Both the position numbers and the translations under genes were made by a program. Under the pieces are notes generated by a model. That model made no database searches. It was not told where the DNA came from and saw only the letters and a program-made list of their open reading frames with translations. 13,650 nucleotides of DNA from Planctomycetota bacterium (lineage in GTDB: Bacteria > Planctomycetota > Phycisphaerae > UBA1845), in contig JADFIX010000017.1 in NCBI GenBank assembly GCA_022566435.1, forward strand, positions 1-13,650, read 5' to 3'. How positions within the stretch are numbered: position 1 is the first letter of the stretch; the number at the start of each line of letters is the position of its first letter. This document shows positions 5,521 to 13,650 of this stretch, one piece after another.

Positions 5521-6402
5521 TCACTGATTGGCCGCCACGACGCGCGCGCCGAAGAGACTGCCACCTGTCATCTCCGCGGGCGGCATGATACCAAATTCCT
5601 TCAGGATGGTCGGCGCGAGATCCACCAGCGATGGTCGTTCACGCAGAATGGGCCTGTTGCTGAAAATCACGCCCGGTACTTCGGCCGCCGACACGCAATG
5701 ATCGGCACTCCAGGCAGAGTCATTGTCCGAGACGACCTCTTCGTTCATATCGCCGAGCGGCGTACTCCACGAAGCGCGATAACCGCGATGGTAGCCGACG
5801 ATCAAATCCGGAGCCTGGGCGACGAAAGGCCCGCGGTACACCTCGTCGGCGCGATCGACGACAGCAATCACCGGTTCACCGTTCAATGGGTCCCGAACGC
5901 CTAGCAACTTCTCACGCAACTCTTCGAGCAGCGCATCGCGATCCACCGGATCGACGATGCCGTCGCGTTCCCGCCCTTTCAGATTCAAATAGAGTCCGTT
6001 CAATCCCAGCCCGTACGCCCTTGATCGCCGCCAGTCCACCGCCACCTTCGTTTTACGGGGATCCCAGAGATGCGTGCACGCCGCGGGCCCAATGTACCCG
6101 TTGTCGCGGAGCCAACGATTGAGATTGAATTGACGGTGAAAGTTGCAGAAGCCGTGATCGGACATGACCAGAATCGTGGCCTGGTCACCATATCGCTCGA
6201 CCACGTCACCAATGACCTTATCCATTCGCGCATAAAGTTTTTCGATCACGGCGTTGTAGCGTTTGGCTTCGTCCGGAGCCCTCACCGGATGCTTCGCGTC
6301 GCTGTCCCACCAGAACATATGGGCCTGCAAATCGGTGCTGGAAAAATAGAAAAATAGCAGGCCGTCCCGGTAATTCGCCAACGCATGGGACAATAGATTC
6401 AT
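5521..6402 (-). CDS. C-terminal half of frameshifted type I phosphodiesterase-like enzyme
   Basis: This open frame (293 aa) is the C-terminal half of an alkaline-phosphatase-superfamily hydrolase. It carries STDLQAH (Asp24, His28), MSDHGF (Asp82, His83) and SADHC (His235), the expected two-metal ligands of the family. It aligns closely with the second half of the 7710-10001 paralog (DGTDRIQH, ISDHGF, SGDHC). In the same frame, upstream of the ATG at 6402, the sequence SDAEYLAQAEYVLQER continues directly from the N-terminal half, so this is one gene of 715 codons broken by a single missing base near 6450. The ATG overlaps the TGA of the upstream half (ATGA), which could allow coupled re-initiation. 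On its own this piece lacks the nucleophile. Confidence 0.85.
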   Translation of the reverse strand: MNLLSHALANYRDGLLFFYFSSTDLQAHMFWWDSDAKHPVRAPDEAKRYNAVIEKLYARMDKVIGDVVERYGDQATILVMSDHGFCNFHRQFNLNRWLRDNGYIGPAACTHLWDPRKTKVAVDWRRSRAYGLGLNGLYLNLKGRERDGIVDPVDRDALLEELREKLLGVRDPLNGEPVIAVVDRADEVYRGPFVAQAPDLIVGYHRGYRASWSTPLGDMNEEVVSDNDSAWSADHCVSAAEVPGVIFSNRPILRERPSLVDLAPTILKEFGIMPPAEMTGGSLFGARVVAANQ

Positions 6403-7667
6403 CCGCTCTTGGAGTACATACTCCGCCTGCGCCAGGTATTCGGCATCCGAAAGACTTTCTGGGACAGCGCCTTGTGGTCCTCCTGGAAGCCGGCCGTATA
6501 GAACAGACCGATATCCTCGGCAATTTCCTCGACAAACGACTCCGGCTCGCTGACCAACTGACCACTCGGATCGGACGGGTCGATATTGATCGGCGTGACA
6601 TACAAGCGGAAGTTGGGGCGGACCTCCTGTAAATAGAACCGGCAGATACCTTTCGCATGTTCGTCCGGAAGAAACGGCGGCATTTCGAGACGATAGTCTA
6701 CTTTTTGCCAGTCACTCCACTCGCCTTCATTCAAGACGATCGTCTGATTCTGCAACTCGATCCGGGCCGCCGGTTTTTCGGGATGGCGGAACACCTCGAA
6801 ATCGACCGCGACCATGCGCGGCTTCTTCAGATAGGTGTGGTCAGGCCCGGAGAGCTTGGCCTTCGCCACATTTCCCCGAAAAACGATTGGCTTTTTTATT
6901 CCGCCGCCCTCGTCAATCACACGAAATGTATCCTCGGCGAAGTGCTGGTACGTGCCGTAGGTTCCGAGCAAATCGGGCACACCCATGCCGCTTAAACAGC
7001 ACATGTGCCCATGTTTCGAGGGGCTCGGCGGGTAGTTTGCCGGTATGTCGTAAATACGGACCGTGACCCCCGCGGCGTCAAGATGATCCCAGAACGGCGT
7101 GCCGCCACGTTTCAGGAGTGTCTGCGTCGGGTTGTGATGGAACGGCCAAAACGTCAGCGGAAGGCGATAGGCACCGACCTCCCATCCCTCTTCACTCGTC
7201 TTGGTTTCGGCTGCGGAATAATAGGGAGAATACTGCCGCGCCGGATCGCGGTGGATGAAATCGAAGATACCGTGCGCACCGGGGCCTGCCCCGGTAATGA
7301 AGTTCGACCATGCCACAGGACTCTGCGGGGGGATGCTCGTTCCCAGCGGCTTGAACCCCCCGCTCTCTCTCAGTCGCGCCATATTGGGCAGCAGACCCGC
7401 GTCCATGAGACGTCCGCACAAGCGCGGGTCCATACCGTCGAATCCAAGAACGATGACCCTTGGATCGGCCGATTCTTGCGAGCCATCCTGACTGCATGAC
7501 GTCAAGAGAACCGCCGCGAAAACCACGCACGCAAATAATGCGCAGCGCCCTCGTATGCGGGCCGCACACAGAAGCCGAGCAGCGCGTGCAAGCAGGCATT
7601 GCAACTCCCGGACATCCACATCTCGACCGACACTAGCGTTCAACTCTATTTGCTCTCCACTCACCAT
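6399..7667 (-). CDS. N-terminal half of frameshifted type I phosphodiesterase-like lipoprotein
   Basis: The N-terminal half (422 aa; residues after 406 are out of frame) of an alkaline-phosphatase-superfamily hydrolase, close to type I phosphodiesterase/nucleotide pyrophosphatase. Hydrophobic residues 42-57 end in LLTSC, a lipobox with Cys58, so the protein is probably a lipoprotein outside the cytoplasmic membrane. VIVLGFDGMD supplies the first metal ligand (Asp77) and PPQSPVAW the probable nucleophile Ser116. Residues 120-400 match the paralog segment by segment (GPGAHGIFDF, KGICRFYLQEVRPNFRLYV, TPINIDP). The stretch before the signal peptide is long and the ATG at 7667 has no clear ribosome site, so the true start may be further in. 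It begins 42 nt after the stop of the paralog. The out-of-frame tail RMPNTWRRRSMYSKSG is an artefact of the shift. Confidence 0.85.
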   Translation of the reverse strand: MVSGEQIELNASVGRDVDVRELQCLLARAARLLCAARIRGRCALFACVVFAAVLLTSCSQDGSQESADPRVIVLGFDGMDPRLCGRLMDAGLLPNMARLRESGGFKPLGTSIPPQSPVAWSNFITGAGPGAHGIFDFIHRDPARQYSPYYSAAETKTSEEGWEVGAYRLPLTFWPFHHNPTQTLLKRGGTPFWDHLDAAGVTVRIYDIPANYPPSPSKHGHMCCLSGMGVPDLLGTYGTYQHFAEDTFRVIDEGGGIKKPIVFRGNVAKAKLSGPDHTYLKKPRMVAVDFEVFRHPEKPAARIELQNQTIVLNEGEWSDWQKVDYRLEMPPFLPDEHAKGICRFYLQEVRPNFRLYVTPINIDPSDPSGQLVSEPESFVEEIAEDIGLFYTAGFQEDHKALSQKVFRMPNTWRRRSMYSKSG

Positions 7668-7709: not shown

Positions 7710-10001
7710 TCAGGCCCCGTGGGCATGGCGTTTTTTTGTGGCCTTGCCGTTCCCCCGGCCATTCACATGCCCGTTTGAAGGAAACGAGCCGTCCGCATCG
7801 GCCACCTCGAGAGGACGTCCATCCATCACTGAAGGCACTCCCACGCCGAACATGTCCAGCGCCGTGGTGCCAATATCCAGCAAGCGAGGATTGGCGGTCT
7901 TGATCTTGCGATTACAGAAGAGCACACCAGGTACGACTTTCGGATCCACACAATGATCGCCGCTCCAGGCCTTGGTGTTGTCGTGAAACAGTGCGTTGGT
8001 CGGTTGGCCGATCGCGGCCTCCCAACACACACGGTATCCGTTGTTGTACCCGACGACGACATCCGGGGCTTCGGTCTTGTAGGGCCCGCTGTAGATTTTT
8101 TGGGTGTTGAACGCCCGATTGATCGCGGTTTTCCCTTTCTCTTCATCCCGAAGACCCGCGAGCTTTTCACAAATCTCGTCGCGTAACGCGTCCGCATCAG
8201 ACGGATCGACAATTCCGTTCGCCTCGCGACCTTTGATGTTCAGCCATAGACCCGCGAGCCCGAGACAGTATGCCTTAGTCTTCGACCAATCCACAGCGGC
8301 CAGGTACTTGTCCTCACGACCTTCGGCGTTCAAAGTCAGGTAGCCGTTCTGCTCGAGCCAAACATTTAAATCGATGCCCCGGCGAAATGAAGCGAATCCG
8401 TGATCGGATATCACCATGAGCACCGTATTCTCATCGTCGCACTCCGCCATGGTCCGACCGACCAGGTCGTCCATACGTTCGTATAGCTCTCGAATGGCGT
8501 CTCGCCGTTGCGGTTCCGCCTGTCCGGCGTGTGCGGGATGTTCCGCGTCGATATAGCGCCAGAACATGTGCTGAATACGATCCGTGCCGTCGAACACGCA
8601 GACGCAAAGACCGCGCTTCACCTTTTCCAGGGCATCGAAGAACATGTCCTCTCGCTCCTCGTCGGCTTCGAGACATTGGTGCAGGAAGGCGTCGTCGTCC
8701 AGAATCTTGGCATTCATGCCCCAGGTATCTTCCGCCAAGCCCAGCGTCGCGTAGCGACCCTGCATTTTCGACAGGTAGGTCGCGTACACGGATGGGTACG
8801 AAATGGGCATTGCCGGTTTGTCGGGATCGATTTGGATCGGGGTCACGTACAATTCGAACTCGGGTTCGGTCTTGATCAACAGGAACTGGCAGATTCCCTT
8901 GACCTTGATGCCCAATCCCGCTTTGAATTCCACGACGATCCAATCGGTATATTCTCCTCGTGTCAGGGCCACACGCTCGCGCCCGACGGTCAACGTCGCT
9001 TGGTCCGGCGTGTCGATACGAATCCGGAACGGGCAGCACATTGCGCCGCCATCCTCTCGCAAACCATTCTCCGGGCCTACCAAGTGCGAACGGATCGCGT
9101 CGCCGTCGCGTGTCACATGAATCTGCTCACCGCCGATGTGCTCCTCGTGGACCGCCGCCGTCGTGTAGTAGGAAAACGTACCTTGCGAACCGCGCAGATC
9201 GGGCACACACATCGCGGAAAGGACTAGACCGCGACACCGCTCCGGGGGAAACGTGATCGGCACGCGAATGACGTTGCTGAAAATCCCGTGCTCGCCGAGG
9301 ACGTGCCAGAACGGTTTGCCCTTTCTCAGCAGACGGATGTCCGCCTTGCCCAGCGGAATGCGATAACGACCGAGCTTGAGTTCTCGCCGCGGTGGATGAA
9401 TACTGACGGAAGAGAGCGCCGGCAGGTAGTTTCGCCGATTGCGGGTGAGGAAATCGAAAATATTGTGTTTGCCGGGATTACTGCAGGTCAAGAAGCTCGA
9501 CCAAGCCACCGGCGAGAGCGGCGGCGCCGTCGTTCCAAGACGTAAGAAGGAACCCTGATTCTTCAACTTTTCCAAATTCGGCAGCCTTCCCTCGGCCATA
9601 TACTTCTCGGCCAAAGTCGGCTCCATGCCGTCGAGACCCAGCACTACGAAGCGCTGGATCCGAGCTTGCGAAAGTGCCCGACGACCACGTAGAAACCGGA
9701 TGAACCAACGCAGAGGCCAAAGAAATATGGCGGCCAATCCAGAAAGGAAGGCGAGAAAGAACGCAATCATCGAGGAGCCGATGGCGAATCCGGCGCCGGG
9801 TCCGATATAGGCATGCGCTTCGTCGCCGATCAGCAGCAAACACAACAGGCCCATAGCGATCGATCGGGCGAGAATCCGCCGGTCGGAATTGCCTGATTTC
9901 CCATGGATTTCGATCATTTCGCGCTGGCACATCGGATTTTTCGATTGGTCACCATTCGGATCGTCACACGCAATGTCTCGCCGGTTCAGAGTCGCTGCCA
10001 T
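7710..10001 (-). CDS. Membrane-anchored alkaline-phosphatase-superfamily hydrolase (type I phosphodiesterase-like)
   Basis: Intact 763-residue paralog of the broken gene downstream. Residues 43-64 are a signal-like segment, AYIGPGAGF (64-72) follows, and 75-97 is a transmembrane helix followed by the Arg-rich RWFIRFLRGRR. The catalytic domain begins near 117. LGLDGM gives Asp124, PPLSPVAW gives probable nucleophile Ser163, DGTDRIQH gives Asp474 and His478, ISDHGF gives Asp533 and His534, and SGDHC gives His683, so the two-metal site is complete. The family hydrolyses phosphodiester, phosphonate or nucleotide bonds; the substrate here is unknown. The last 30 residues are a Gly/Asn/Lys tail. 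Start is uncertain: ATG codons at 10001, 9932 and 9917 are in frame without strong ribosome sites. The promoter candidate at 10019-10047 would leave almost no leader for 10001, which favours 9932 or 9917. Confidence 0.9.
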   Translation of the reverse strand: MAATLNRRDIACDDPNGDQSKNPMCQREMIEIHGKSGNSDRRILARSIAMGLLCLLLIGDEAHAYIGPGAGFAIGSSMIAFFLAFLSGLAAIFLWPLRWFIRFLRGRRALSQARIQRFVVLGLDGMEPTLAEKYMAEGRLPNLEKLKNQGSFLRLGTTAPPLSPVAWSSFLTCSNPGKHNIFDFLTRNRRNYLPALSSVSIHPPRRELKLGRYRIPLGKADIRLLRKGKPFWHVLGEHGIFSNVIRVPITFPPERCRGLVLSAMCVPDLRGSQGTFSYYTTAAVHEEHIGGEQIHVTRDGDAIRSHLVGPENGLREDGGAMCCPFRIRIDTPDQATLTVGRERVALTRGEYTDWIVVEFKAGLGIKVKGICQFLLIKTEPEFELYVTPIQIDPDKPAMPISYPSVYATYLSKMQGRYATLGLAEDTWGMNAKILDDDAFLHQCLEADEEREDMFFDALEKVKRGLCVCVFDGTDRIQHMFWRYIDAEHPAHAGQAEPQRRDAIRELYERMDDLVGRTMAECDDENTVLMVISDHGFASFRRGIDLNVWLEQNGYLTLNAEGREDKYLAAVDWSKTKAYCLGLAGLWLNIKGREANGIVDPSDADALRDEICEKLAGLRDEEKGKTAINRAFNTQKIYSGPYKTEAPDVVVGYNNGYRVCWEAAIGQPTNALFHDNTKAWSGDHCVDPKVVPGVLFCNRKIKTANPRLLDIGTTALDMFGVGVPSVMDGRPLEVADADGSFPSNGHVNGRGNGKATKKRHAHGA

Positions 10002-10414: not shown

Positions 10415-10684
10415 GAACGATTCTGTAACATTCTCTATTTCTTGATCCGTACAGCGCATCAACCACTCAACCCAAATCGAAAGGCCGATCAGCGGGAGTC
10501 CTGGCGTCGCGATCCCGTCATTATCACACGTTCCGAATGTCGCTTGGTAAACCGTGGCCCCAAACGAATCTACCTCGCGCAACTTTCGAATTCGAGCTTT
10601 CGGTTCGCCTGCCATCTTACGATATTCGATTTGTGGGCACTCACGGTCGCCCGGGAAATACCGGTAGCCAGAACGAGAAAACGG
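10415..10684. other. Upstream region of the HerA-like gene
   Basis: The HerA reading frame stays open upstream to 10442, but the 81 extra residues are Arg-rich, low in conserved character and precede a typical HerA N-terminus, so I treat this as non-coding leader. I could not find a convincing plus-strand promoter pair. No repeat or RNA gene was recognised. Confidence 0.4.
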
Positions 10685-12685
10685 ATGAATCCACTCAAAA
10701 TCGGAAACGTCGTTCGTGTGGAAAGTGGACGCGTCGATGTCGTGATCACGGCCAACGATCTCAATCTACTCCATGATGATCGGACGTATAGGGTCGGCCA
10801 GCTCGGCTCCTACATTACGATCCCCATGGACGCGCGAACAATCATCGGGTTCGTAGTGGGCGTCGGCCGTCAAGAGGTCTCCGTTGTCGACGTCGAACCC
10901 CAGCTCATCATGCAAGTGCAGCTTCTCGGAGAAATCGCCGCAGGGAGCTTCGTGCGCGGGGTCAACGAGTATCCGATCGTGGGCGACGACGTTTGGGTCG
11001 CCATCCAGGCGGACTTCGAGGCCATCTTCGGAAGCTTCGACCAACTCTTGAGTGGCACCGAACACCCCCAAAGCTTCACGTTGGGCCGGTTCGCCCTGAA
11101 TACGGACTTTGAAGTCAAGGTGCTCGGTACCGAGATGTTTGCGAAGCATGTGGCCATCGTGGGCAACAGCGGAAGCGGAAAGAGCTGCACGGTGGCAAGG
11201 ATCTTGCAGGAGGTGCTCGATCTCGAACAATCGCAAGTGGTGATGTTCGATATGCACGGCGAATACCGTGCGGCGTTCTCCGACGAAGAGGGTCAGCTTA
11301 ACGCCAACGTCACGTACTTGGATGTCGACGACCTCGTGCTGCCGTATTGGTTGCTCAAGTACGAAGAGTTGGAAGCCATATTCGTTGATCGATCCAACCC
11401 GCTGCATGTCAGCACGCAAATATCATTCTTACGTTCGGCGATACTCGAATTCAAGCAGGATGCCGCCGAGCAGTTGGGCCTAACGAAGTCCCTGACGCTT
11501 GATACGCCGATCTATTTTTCGCTCGAATGTTTGAAAAACTACGCCGAAAACCTCAACGAAGCGCGGTATGTGTTGAATGAAGATCATCTCGCCTTCAGCA
11601 AGCTCGCTCTACGCTCGCTTGATCCCGAAGAGCAGCAGAAGCTCATGCGCACGACGCGGTGCCAGTTCAATCGCGGCAATCCGGAAGGCGAGACACCGCA
11701 CCCGCTCTATTTCGGTAAGCTTCTCGGCTTGATCGACCAGATCGATACCAAGTTTCTGGATCGTCGTTACCAGTTCCTTCTACGCCCCCTTCAACATGGA
11801 AAGAATTCCCGATACTTCCGCGACGAGCTGTCTCAACACGATGGAAGCGGGCGAACGTCCCAGCTGATGAACCACCTGATCAAGCTGCTGACCGGACGCG
11901 TCGAGCCGAGAAGTAATCTGACCATTATCGACCTGTCCGGCATCCCGTTCGAAATCGTCGACATCGCCGTCGCCGTCCTCACGCGGCTGTTGTTCGATCT
12001 AAATTTCTGGACCCCCGCCGCGCAGCGGCACCCCATGCTCCTGGTCTTCGAGGAGGCACACAACTACGTGCCGCGGGTAGTCGGAAACCGCTCATCGTTC
12101 GCCAAGACGGCGGTCGAACGGGTGGCCAAAGAGGGCCGAAAGTATGGCGTCAGCGCGATGATCGTCTCTCAGCGCCCGTCGGAGCTTTCGGAAACCGTTC
12201 TCGCCCAGTGCAACAGTTTTATCGCCATGCGATTGAACAATCCCGACGACCAGCGATACGTGGAAAAAGTGGTCAGCGACCACTTCGCGGGTCTGCTGAA
12301 GATGCTGCCCGTGCTCCGCCCGGGTGAGGCGTTTGTCATCGGCGACAGCGTCATCATGCCCATGCGCACCCTCATCGACATTCCCAACCCAAAACCGCAA
12401 AGTGGAAACATTGACTTCTTCAAGCACTGGGCTGATTCCGACCCGGATTACGACATCGACGAAATCATCCAACATTGGCGCGCCCAAAACCGCCACGCCG
12501 TCACCGAGACGCCGGACCTTGCACCTACGTTCGACGCCGATGCCCCACCGGCGCCGTCGAGCGTTTCTCGTCCGGGCACTCCGGTACCGGCAACCGCATC
12601 GCCGGCCGGCGCCTTATCGGGCGCCCCGCAGGGAAAGCCCGTCACCGCCTCATCCATCCGAAAGTCCAAGTGGCTTGCCGGCTGA
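10685..12685 (+). CDS. HerA-like P-loop ATPase (DUF87 / FtsK-HerA superfamily)
   Basis: A 666-residue hexameric-translocase-type ATPase. Residues 1-150 form a HAS-barrel-like beta domain (IGNVVRVESGRVDVVI). Walker A is GNSGSGKSC (160-168), followed by VVMFDMHGEY (185-194), typical of the family. A helical insert occupies about 222-400. Walker B is LLVFEEAHNYVP (452-463), and SQRPSELSETVLAQCNSFIAM (495-515) contains the sensor and arginine-finger region. The C-terminal DFFKHW to HWRAQ helix is followed by a Pro/Ala/Ser-rich tail (610-655). ATG 10685 is chosen because the HAS-barrel begins there, although its ribosome site is weak. HerA proteins work with the NurA nuclease in archaeal end resection, and in bacteria with Sir2-, DUF4297- or nuclease-type partners in anti-phage defence. 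No such partner is in the window, so it may act alone, with an unlinked partner, or in DNA repair. It does not overlap its neighbours. Confidence 0.9.
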   Translation: MNPLKIGNVVRVESGRVDVVITANDLNLLHDDRTYRVGQLGSYITIPMDARTIIGFVVGVGRQEVSVVDVEPQLIMQVQLLGEIAAGSFVRGVNEYPIVGDDVWVAIQADFEAIFGSFDQLLSGTEHPQSFTLGRFALNTDFEVKVLGTEMFAKHVAIVGNSGSGKSCTVARILQEVLDLEQSQVVMFDMHGEYRAAFSDEEGQLNANVTYLDVDDLVLPYWLLKYEELEAIFVDRSNPLHVSTQISFLRSAILEFKQDAAEQLGLTKSLTLDTPIYFSLECLKNYAENLNEARYVLNEDHLAFSKLALRSLDPEEQQKLMRTTRCQFNRGNPEGETPHPLYFGKLLGLIDQIDTKFLDRRYQFLLRPLQHGKNSRYFRDELSQHDGSGRTSQLMNHLIKLLTGRVEPRSNLTIIDLSGIPFEIVDIAVAVLTRLLFDLNFWTPAAQRHPMLLVFEEAHNYVPRVVGNRSSFAKTAVERVAKEGRKYGVSAMIVSQRPSELSETVLAQCNSFIAMRLNNPDDQRYVEKVVSDHFAGLLKMLPVLRPGEAFVIGDSVIMPMRTLIDIPNPKPQSGNIDFFKHWADSDPDYDIDEIIQHWRAQNRHAVTETPDLAPTFDADAPPAPSSVSRPGTPVPATASPAGALSGAPQGKPVTASSIRKSKWLAG

Positions 12686-12714: not shown

Positions 12715-12940
12715 CATGGATACAGCACTACGAGCGGCCTCACGGATCCCGGGCGCATGGAATCAAACCGGGCATCTGCGAGTCGGCTCGAATGACAGGC
12801 ATAGGACGAAGCGGGCGGAGGCGATCGCCGGCAAACGATAAGGTTTGCGGGAGGAAAGTCCGGACTGGGCAGGGCACGGTGGTTGGTAACGCCAACCCGG
12901 CGCAAGCCGAGGGAAAGTGCCACAGAAACGACACCGCCGG

Positions 12941-13022
12941 GAAAACGTCAAAACGCCCAAAAAGTCGAAACGGCGAAAGACCGTGTTTTGGCTTTTCGAC
13001 GTTTCGATGTTTCGACGTTTTC
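12941..13022 (+). repeat. Octamer-based inverted repeat extending rnpB helix P12
   Basis: Outer arms GAAAACGTC (12941-12949) and GACGTTTTC (13014-13022) pair perfectly. The 3' arm is a tandem of octamers: TTTCGACG (12994-13001), TTTCGATG (13002-13009), TTTCGACG (13010-13017). The 5' arm carries the opposite-sense units GTCGAAAC (12964-12971) and GGCGAAAG (12972-12979). It sits where the short P12 hairpin is expected, between the conserved ACCGCC and GGTAAGGGTGAAA elements. Confidence 0.8.
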
Positions 13023-13138
13023 ATCGGTAAGGGTGAAATGGTGCGGTAAGAGCGCACCGCGCGGCCGGTGACGGTCGCGGCAGGGTAAACCCCACCGCCA
13101 GCAAGCCCAAATAGGCAGCGAGAGGCGGCCCGTCTCGG

Positions 13139-13209
13139 AGAATGCAGAATGGCGAATTCAGAATAGCGGATTCTTCATTCGCTATTCGCCATTCTAAATT
13201 CTGCATTCT
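13139..13209 (+). repeat. Heptamer-based inverted repeat inserted in rnpB near P16/P17
   Basis: Perfect 12-base arms AGAATGCAGAAT (13139-13150) and ATTCTGCATTCT (13198-13209), with inner arms GGCGAAT (13151-13157) and ATTCGCC (13184-13190). The whole element has period 7: units of the form GAATNNN on the 5' side and NNNATTC on the 3' side (for example TTCATTC, GCTATTC, GCCATTC, TAAATTC, TGCATTC). It lies between the P17 strand (GTCTC) and the P16 3' strand (GCTG), leaving the flanking core elements intact. Confidence 0.85.
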
Positions 13210-13433
13210 GAAGCTGTGGGTAGGGCGCTCGAGCCGGCGGGCAACCGTCGGCCCAGATGAATGATCGCCGCCCGCTCGGCCAACGCCAAGCGGGAACAGA
13301 ATTCGGCTTACAGACCCGCCGGTCCGTCTTGTTTTGTTTCGTTGCACTTCCGACGCCCCCCAACCACCCGCCTCGCGTTCGACCACTCGCGCCACCCAAC
13401 ATTCGGGGCGCCCTGGCATTAGGCGCATGACAA

Positions 13434-13461: not shown

Positions 13462-13485
13462 TAATAGGTCTCAGTTTTCAGTCTA

Positions 13486-13650
13486 TTACCGTCGGCGCCT
13501 TGCGAGCATCAGTCCACCGAGGGCGAACAGCAAGAGCGTGGCGGGTTCGGGAACTGCGGAACCTTGACCTTGAATCGTCGCTCCAACTTCCAAGGTTACG
13601 CCACCCGGAGGAACGATGAAGCTCAGACTTTCATAAGTAGGAGTGCTAGA
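13486..13650 (-). CDS. PEP-CTERM sorting-domain protein, C-terminal end (runs off right edge)
   Basis: Only the last 54 residues are visible. They end in VPEPATLLLFALGGLMLARRRR: a VPEP motif, a hydrophobic helix and an Arg cluster, the complete PEP-CTERM sorting signal recognised by exosortase in bacteria that make extracellular polysaccharide. The upstream residues (SLSFIVPPGGVTLEVGATI) look like the edge of a beta-rich extracellular domain. The start and the main domain are outside the window, so the function is unknown. No exosortase gene is present here. The stop TAA at 13486-13488 is followed by a hairpin. Confidence 0.9.
   Translation of the reverse strand, partial: SSTPTYESLSFIVPPGGVTLEVGATIQGQGSAVPEPATLLLFALGGLMLARRRR

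Follow-up and report, generated by a model that had tools for sequence, protein, structure and literature searches.

Short tandem heptamers of the STRR type reportedly lie within rnpB of heterocyst-forming cyanobacteria, an observation said to go back to Vioque in 1997. The repeat family that we describe here shares with the cyanobacterial STRRs a tandem heptamer unit that is scattered over genomes, in our case those of relatives, and that also occurs inside rnpB. It is unlike them in its Phycisphaerae host, its GAATNNN unit, the inverted arrangement of its arrays around a loop, and the presence of a second kind of repeat in the same gene. The unit sequences of STRRs differ from GAATNNN. Three further systems are close enough to be compared. 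REP elements, in the part of the source that treats them, are small extragenic palindromes, 20-40 bp long and tagged with GTAG or CGTC, which are present in many copies per genome and occur in planctomycetes as well (PMC3733652). Marine Beggiatoaceae carry TAACTGA heptamer repeats, which the relevant sections of PMC4679880 describe as intergenic arrays with an odd taxonomic spread; unlike GAATNNN, TAACTGA is there a fixed heptamer found nearly always in direct repeats, and the terms rnpB and RNase P are absent from the text of that paper on these repeats. The peripheral helices of RNase P RNA vary in length between lineages, and the helix reported here is unlike the extended helices in the passages that describe them (PMC8172020) in being made of a dispersed repeat. 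In literature searches we recognized no report of such repeats in planctomycete rnpB, although an earlier mention in Butler and Fuerst 2004, which deals with planctomycetes, is possible.

The stretch of DNA that we analyzed, hereafter the window, is 13,650 nucleotides long, and its host, judged by sequence, is a Phycisphaerae MAG. The closest sequences to the protein encoded next to rnpB (10442-12685), which we take to be a HerA-like ATPase, come from MAGs of Phycisphaerae and Planctomycetota, at up to 75% identity. The class A RNase P RNA gene, rnpB, is found at 12812-13326 (+), where it gave a full-length match to RF00010 (model 1-367 of 367) of 280.9 bits against a gathering score of 100. 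Two stretches of the gene depart from the family consensus in this match, and both are long insertions, one in P12 and one in the P16/P17 region. The genome assembly is 64% complete and consists of 939 contigs, and for this reason the repeat counts given below for the window's own genome are lower bounds. Elsewhere in the window, two open frames on the minus strand (6399-7667 and 5521-6402, spanning 5521-7667) overlap by 4 bases and together resemble by eye the intact 763-residue frame at 7710-10001, each corresponding to one half; they are perhaps a split or frameshifted neighbour copy of it. The reverse strand at 13480-13560 (-), translated by eye, reads AVPEPATLLLFALGGLMLARRRR, a motif that is presumably a PEP-CTERM-like sorting tail.

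Repeat and fold analysis identified the insertion in the P16/P17 region as a heptamer palindrome, GAATNNN / NNNATTC, at 13139-13209 (+), which folds into an additional hairpin between the P17 and P16 3' strands. GAAT starts at 13140, 13147, 13154 and 13161, and ATTC starts at 13170, 13177, 13184, 13191, 13198 and 13205. The insert contains eight period-7 adjacencies, whereas 5000 dinucleotide shuffles averaged 0.025 and never exceeded 2. Its self-identity reaches 0.64 and 0.67 at lags 7 and 14 and stays within 0.15-0.29 at lags 3-6 and 8-13. These results bear out the initial annotation, which had recognized a period-7 palindrome inside rnpB. Folding of the 136-nt region 13110-13245 gave a z-score of -3.55, which was equalled by none of 200 shuffles. 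The initial annotation had also proposed a hairpin with one heptamer slipped out on the 3' side, and this part did not hold. At minimum energy (-33.0 kcal/mol) the hairpin pairs in register and contains two 3x3 internal loops; forcing the slipped pairing gave -30.2 kcal/mol, which is 2.8 kcal/mol worse, and the slipped version loops out one heptamer on each side rather than on the 3' side alone. Inspection of the window copy by eye found no element-specific tag of the REP type (GTAG or CGTC); the CGTC and GTAG nearby are rnpB sequence and are present in relatives with a bare slot too.

The helices around the insert were assigned by eye, in comparison with relatives, because cmscan left P17 unplaced there, and we take the names P6, P16 and P17 to follow the E. 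coli helix scheme. The 5' strand of P16 (GGCAGC) lies at 13114-13119 (+) and its 3' strand (AGCTGT) at 13212-13217 (+), with 13115-13119 pairing with 13213-13217. The P17 hairpin, GAGA...UCUC, occupies 13120-13136 (+), with 13120-13123 pairing with 13133-13136, and its loop holds the P6 strand GCCC (13128-13131). This strand stands opposite GGGC at 12872-12875 (+), which from its position in the sequence and by analogy with E. coli we take to be the 5' strand of P6. By eye, the insert falls 3' of the end of P17 and before the 3' strand of P16. The flanking strands of both helices are still able to pair, as had been claimed from the sequence alone, and the P15-P17 and P6 pairings around the insert appear by eye to be kept. 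We infer that the RNase P RNA of the window is probably active with its insert, which would be tolerated since all it contributes is one more hairpin at a peripheral junction, while P16, P17 and the P6 contact can still pair. The long stems could also behave as a processed intervening sequence, removed by a double-strand RNase that leaves a nick in the mature RNase P RNA. RNase III could plausibly cut such long stems, but many RNase P RNAs have long peripheral helices without excision, and we consider such processing very unlikely.

We compared the P16/P17 region among relatives, recovering rnpB from 55 of 60 genomes and, in the host's family (f1), from 32 of 36; G036, G056 and G057 were left out of the classification of the P16/P17 slot. 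An extra stem occupies the slot in 28 of the 32 f1 genes and is very different in sequence and length from one to another. Folding of the slot stretch identified 26 of these stems (those of G017 and G032 being weak as cut), and two, in G008 and G019, were identified by eye. The slot is bare in the other four f1 genes (G004, G034, G028 and G035). With a stem in 28 of 32 genes, the slot usually holds an ordinary hairpin in this family, and the P16/P17 point is a variable accessory-stem slot in f1. Outside f1, a slot stem was found in none of six f5 genomes, and by eye the slot is bare in five genomes of f4 (G038, G044, G051, G054 and G048). A 5'-side hairpin takes the place of the slot stem, by eye, in G043 and G047 (f2), G040 (f6) and G041 (f7), and G059 (f8) has something on the 3' side of the slot (by eye).

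Within this first set of relatives, GAATNNN units were found in the slot of the window genome (G000) and of G031. A slot-specific GAATNNN pattern applied to 114 genomes of the order matched four (G000, G031, G089 and G093), and its control matched none; because the pattern is strict, it misses degenerate slot arrays. The four genomes belong to three genera, G089 being in the same genus as G031.

The second insertion is an octamer palindrome at 12942-13022 (+), which forms P12 and was identified by period-8 repeat analysis, so the earlier statement that two kinds of repeat share this RNA was correct. By eye, P12 octamers are present in 9 of 32 f1 genomes. The octamer P12s of six genomes (G000, G031, G032, G002, G030 and G021) align with one another, and when co-folded they gave 33 pairs, nine of which change on both sides in one or more sequences, with an overall covariation term that is unfavourable (+1.97 kcal/mol). 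Maintenance of the P12 pairing in the octamer P12s is thus no more than suggested. Across genomes, the octamer pattern TTTCGANG x2 matched 18 of 60, with 2 control matches. A palindromic octamer pattern matched in 10 of 60 genomes, at 24 places after merging by eye, and its control matched one genome, G008, once per strand. In the window's own genome, at 64% completeness, both octamer patterns were found nowhere outside rnpB. Other repeat-like palindromes seen by eye in P12 are another heptamer in G027 (L088) and other octamers in G044 (L021) and G051 (L006). Longer P12 palindromes, each different, were seen by eye in G049 (L002), G059 (L074), G011 (L086), G014 (L084) and G015 (L082).

Among the close relatives we found an empty site beside an occupied one. 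G093 and G028 belong to one genus, and 309 of the 331 positions that align between their rnpB genes are identical (93.4%). In G093 the slot is filled by a GAATNNN palindrome whose centre is long, and P12 carries octamer arrays; in G028 the slot contains just a few bases, and at P12 there is a minimal GAAA loop. The heptamer element was not found to be both single-copy and conserved in sequence among distant relatives, the combination that the initial annotation had said would make it an ordinary P16/P17 variant.

The two inserts also occur together. By eye, octamer units are present in P12 of all four heptamer-slot genomes (the 3' octamer arm of G089 being degenerate, also by eye), versus 9 of the 32 f1 members of the first set. 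This association would be expected from one ancient event, either an ancestor with both inserts, which were then mostly lost or rewritten, or a two-insert rnpB allele spread by recombination. The alignment of the six octamer P12s points in the same direction, as do the slot arrays of the window and G031, which align somewhat above chance (score 47, with 6 of 300 nulls as good); these two slot copies could be inherited. However, the rnpB core of G093 is nearer to that of the bare G028 than to that of the window (387/450 identical), and a clean loss of both inserts would be needed in G028. Congeners also differ at each site: the slot holds an octamer array in G002 and a plain stem in G032, and P12 is a long octamer form in G008 and a minimal TTCG form in G035. 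We therefore regard one ancient event as unlikely.

Three trees were built. The rnpB core tree (54 sequences) did not separate relations within the family, and a tree of the neighbouring ATPase, whose gene is beside or near rnpB in 11 of 36 genomes, had weak support; both were set aside. In the rpoB tree the family falls into two clades, and the window genome was not placed by this tree, since its rpoB, a fragment of 370 residues, forms a long branch. This fragment (L355, G000:C758) may be a binning error.

The heptamer palindrome is dispersed in relatives. A 3+2-unit inverted heptamer pattern matched 45 places (overlapping matches merged by eye) in 16 of 60 genomes, against one control match in all, and the strict pattern gave one to nine copies in each of the 16 genomes. 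The usual element has 2-6 GAATNNN units, a loop of mostly about 16-27 nt, and then 2-7 ATTC units. By a crude ORF caller, 37 of the 44 places examined fall in intergenic gaps, mostly short ones, and 7 within predicted ORFs, while ORFs make up 89% of these loci. For the 36 places with both neighbours, 26 lie between co-directional, 8 between convergent and 2 between divergent genes (P = 0.016 for divergent placement, against an assumed 20% divergent). As extragenic palindromes in many copies, the heptamer elements are like REPs as these are described in part of PMC3733652; they are unlike them in being about 50-95 bp long and built of 7-nt units. At L052 (G048, 1501-1667), heptamer arrays lie in tandem with a common ATCCGCGTGGCGGCG stretch between them.

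The initial annotation had suggested that the repeats spread through the genome and survive only at peripheral helices. Dispersal holds for relatives (heptamers in 16/60 genomes, octamer pairs in 18/60) but is not visible in the window's own genome. There, in the 64% complete assembly, a relaxed heptamer palindrome pattern matched rnpB only, one further, imperfect heptamer element (L031) was found, and octamers were confined to rnpB. The intergenic majority of heptamer copies in relatives makes survival at peripheral helices alone too strong a statement. Within rnpB itself the inserts do sit at peripheral points, and the same two kinds of repeat occupy the same two sites in other genera.

Among 42 dispersed elements, the best match to the window copy is L209, an intergenic element of G015, which belongs to another genus. 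The alignment of the two, which takes in the loop, has one gap of 7 nt and 56 identical bases out of 62; of 300 random elements built with the same grammar, 1 matched as well. The five best matches all come from G015. The loop and arm order held in common with L209 argue against growth in place, by which slippage during replication and template switching at a DNA hairpin would have enlarged an accessory stem, no element having come in from elsewhere. The occurrence of the GAATNNN unit at many unrelated places in 16/60 genomes also counts against such growth, as does the slot of G028, which has no stem to grow from. Growth in place would fit units that differ in exact 7-nt steps and the plain stems that occupy the slot in many relatives. 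It would also fit the loops of the dispersed elements, most of which are by eye mutually unrelated and so argue against the copying of one fixed element. Finally, the heptamer array of L217 in G002 (1004-1083), an element between two genes, starts within the final codons of the gene upstream; the congener encodes identical residues there by other codons, and local growth would also explain this overlap. On the other side, G032 offers an empty syntenic site for L217: 106 unmatched nt in G002 correspond to 14 nt in this congener, a difference that exceeds the length of the palindrome itself. An apparent decayed counterpart of L219 is seen by eye in G032, and the L218 region is too diverged for comparison. 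Weighing both sides, we find growth in place distinctly improbable. Folding after arm swaps was tried as a signal and rejected: 11 of 39 elements fell in the best tenth, with a median rank of 0.26, and the measure is confounded by arm length and the small triplet pool.

A match to Y1_Tnp was found in 58 of 60 genomes, 57 of them over the cut-off, and for this reason its presence is uninformative. No heptamer arrays of three units were found near a Y1 transposase at the 30 loci scanned, and octamer arrays were found at 1 of the 30 (L270 in G013), where oppositely oriented arrays (961-1000 and 2745-2778) flank the Y1 gene, with other open frames between.

We think it probable that a copy of the dispersed GAATNNN palindrome sits in the variable P17/P16 slot, tolerated as a peripheral hairpin. 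The element would belong to a family of dispersed palindromes built of short tandem repeats, broadly comparable to STRR and REP, and the copy may have entered the slot by a transposition-like or recombination route. The octamer family would have done likewise in P12, with small mobile-type palindromic repeats repeatedly settling at two peripheral points of rnpB. In its favour count the dispersal of the family between genes, the match to L209, the optional nature of the slot and its differing occupants in G002 and G032, the empty sites of G028 (in rnpB) and of G032 (at L217), and the excess of both kinds of repeat in rnpB. Against this explanation stand the single other heptamer element in the window's own genome, the unrelated loops, the L217 overlap and the failure to find a transposase link at the Y1 loci scanned.

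The rnpB gene holds 2 of the 45 heptamer places, where about 0.03 would be expected under a uniform intergenic model (11% of bases assumed), and 5 of the 24 palindromic octamer places, where a rough uniform model predicts about 0.02; because inherited copies are not independent, this over-representation is an indication only. Inserts may last longer in rnpB, where the hairpin would be harmless or mildly useful, while intergenic copies would decay, and the simplest reason for the over-representation would be retention inside a transcribed RNA. A different reading is that rnpB of Phycisphaerae serves as a site-specific landing pad, with octamers directed to P12 and heptamers to the P17/P16 junction by a dedicated, perhaps hairpin-recognizing, insertion. 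We hold this to be doubtful; if it were true, the same pair of inserts would arise anew in separate genera.

Where such inserts occur, automatic RNase P models can misplace P17. By analogy, the window insert may work like the STRR insertions in cyanobacterial rnpB, with a different unit, architecture and host. It is an instance of dispersed short-unit repeats inside an essential ribozyme in a lineage far from the cyanobacteria. Because one pair of congeners offers both an occupied and an empty site, these natural alleles could serve to study the movement of the elements and the reason for their persistence in RNase P RNA.
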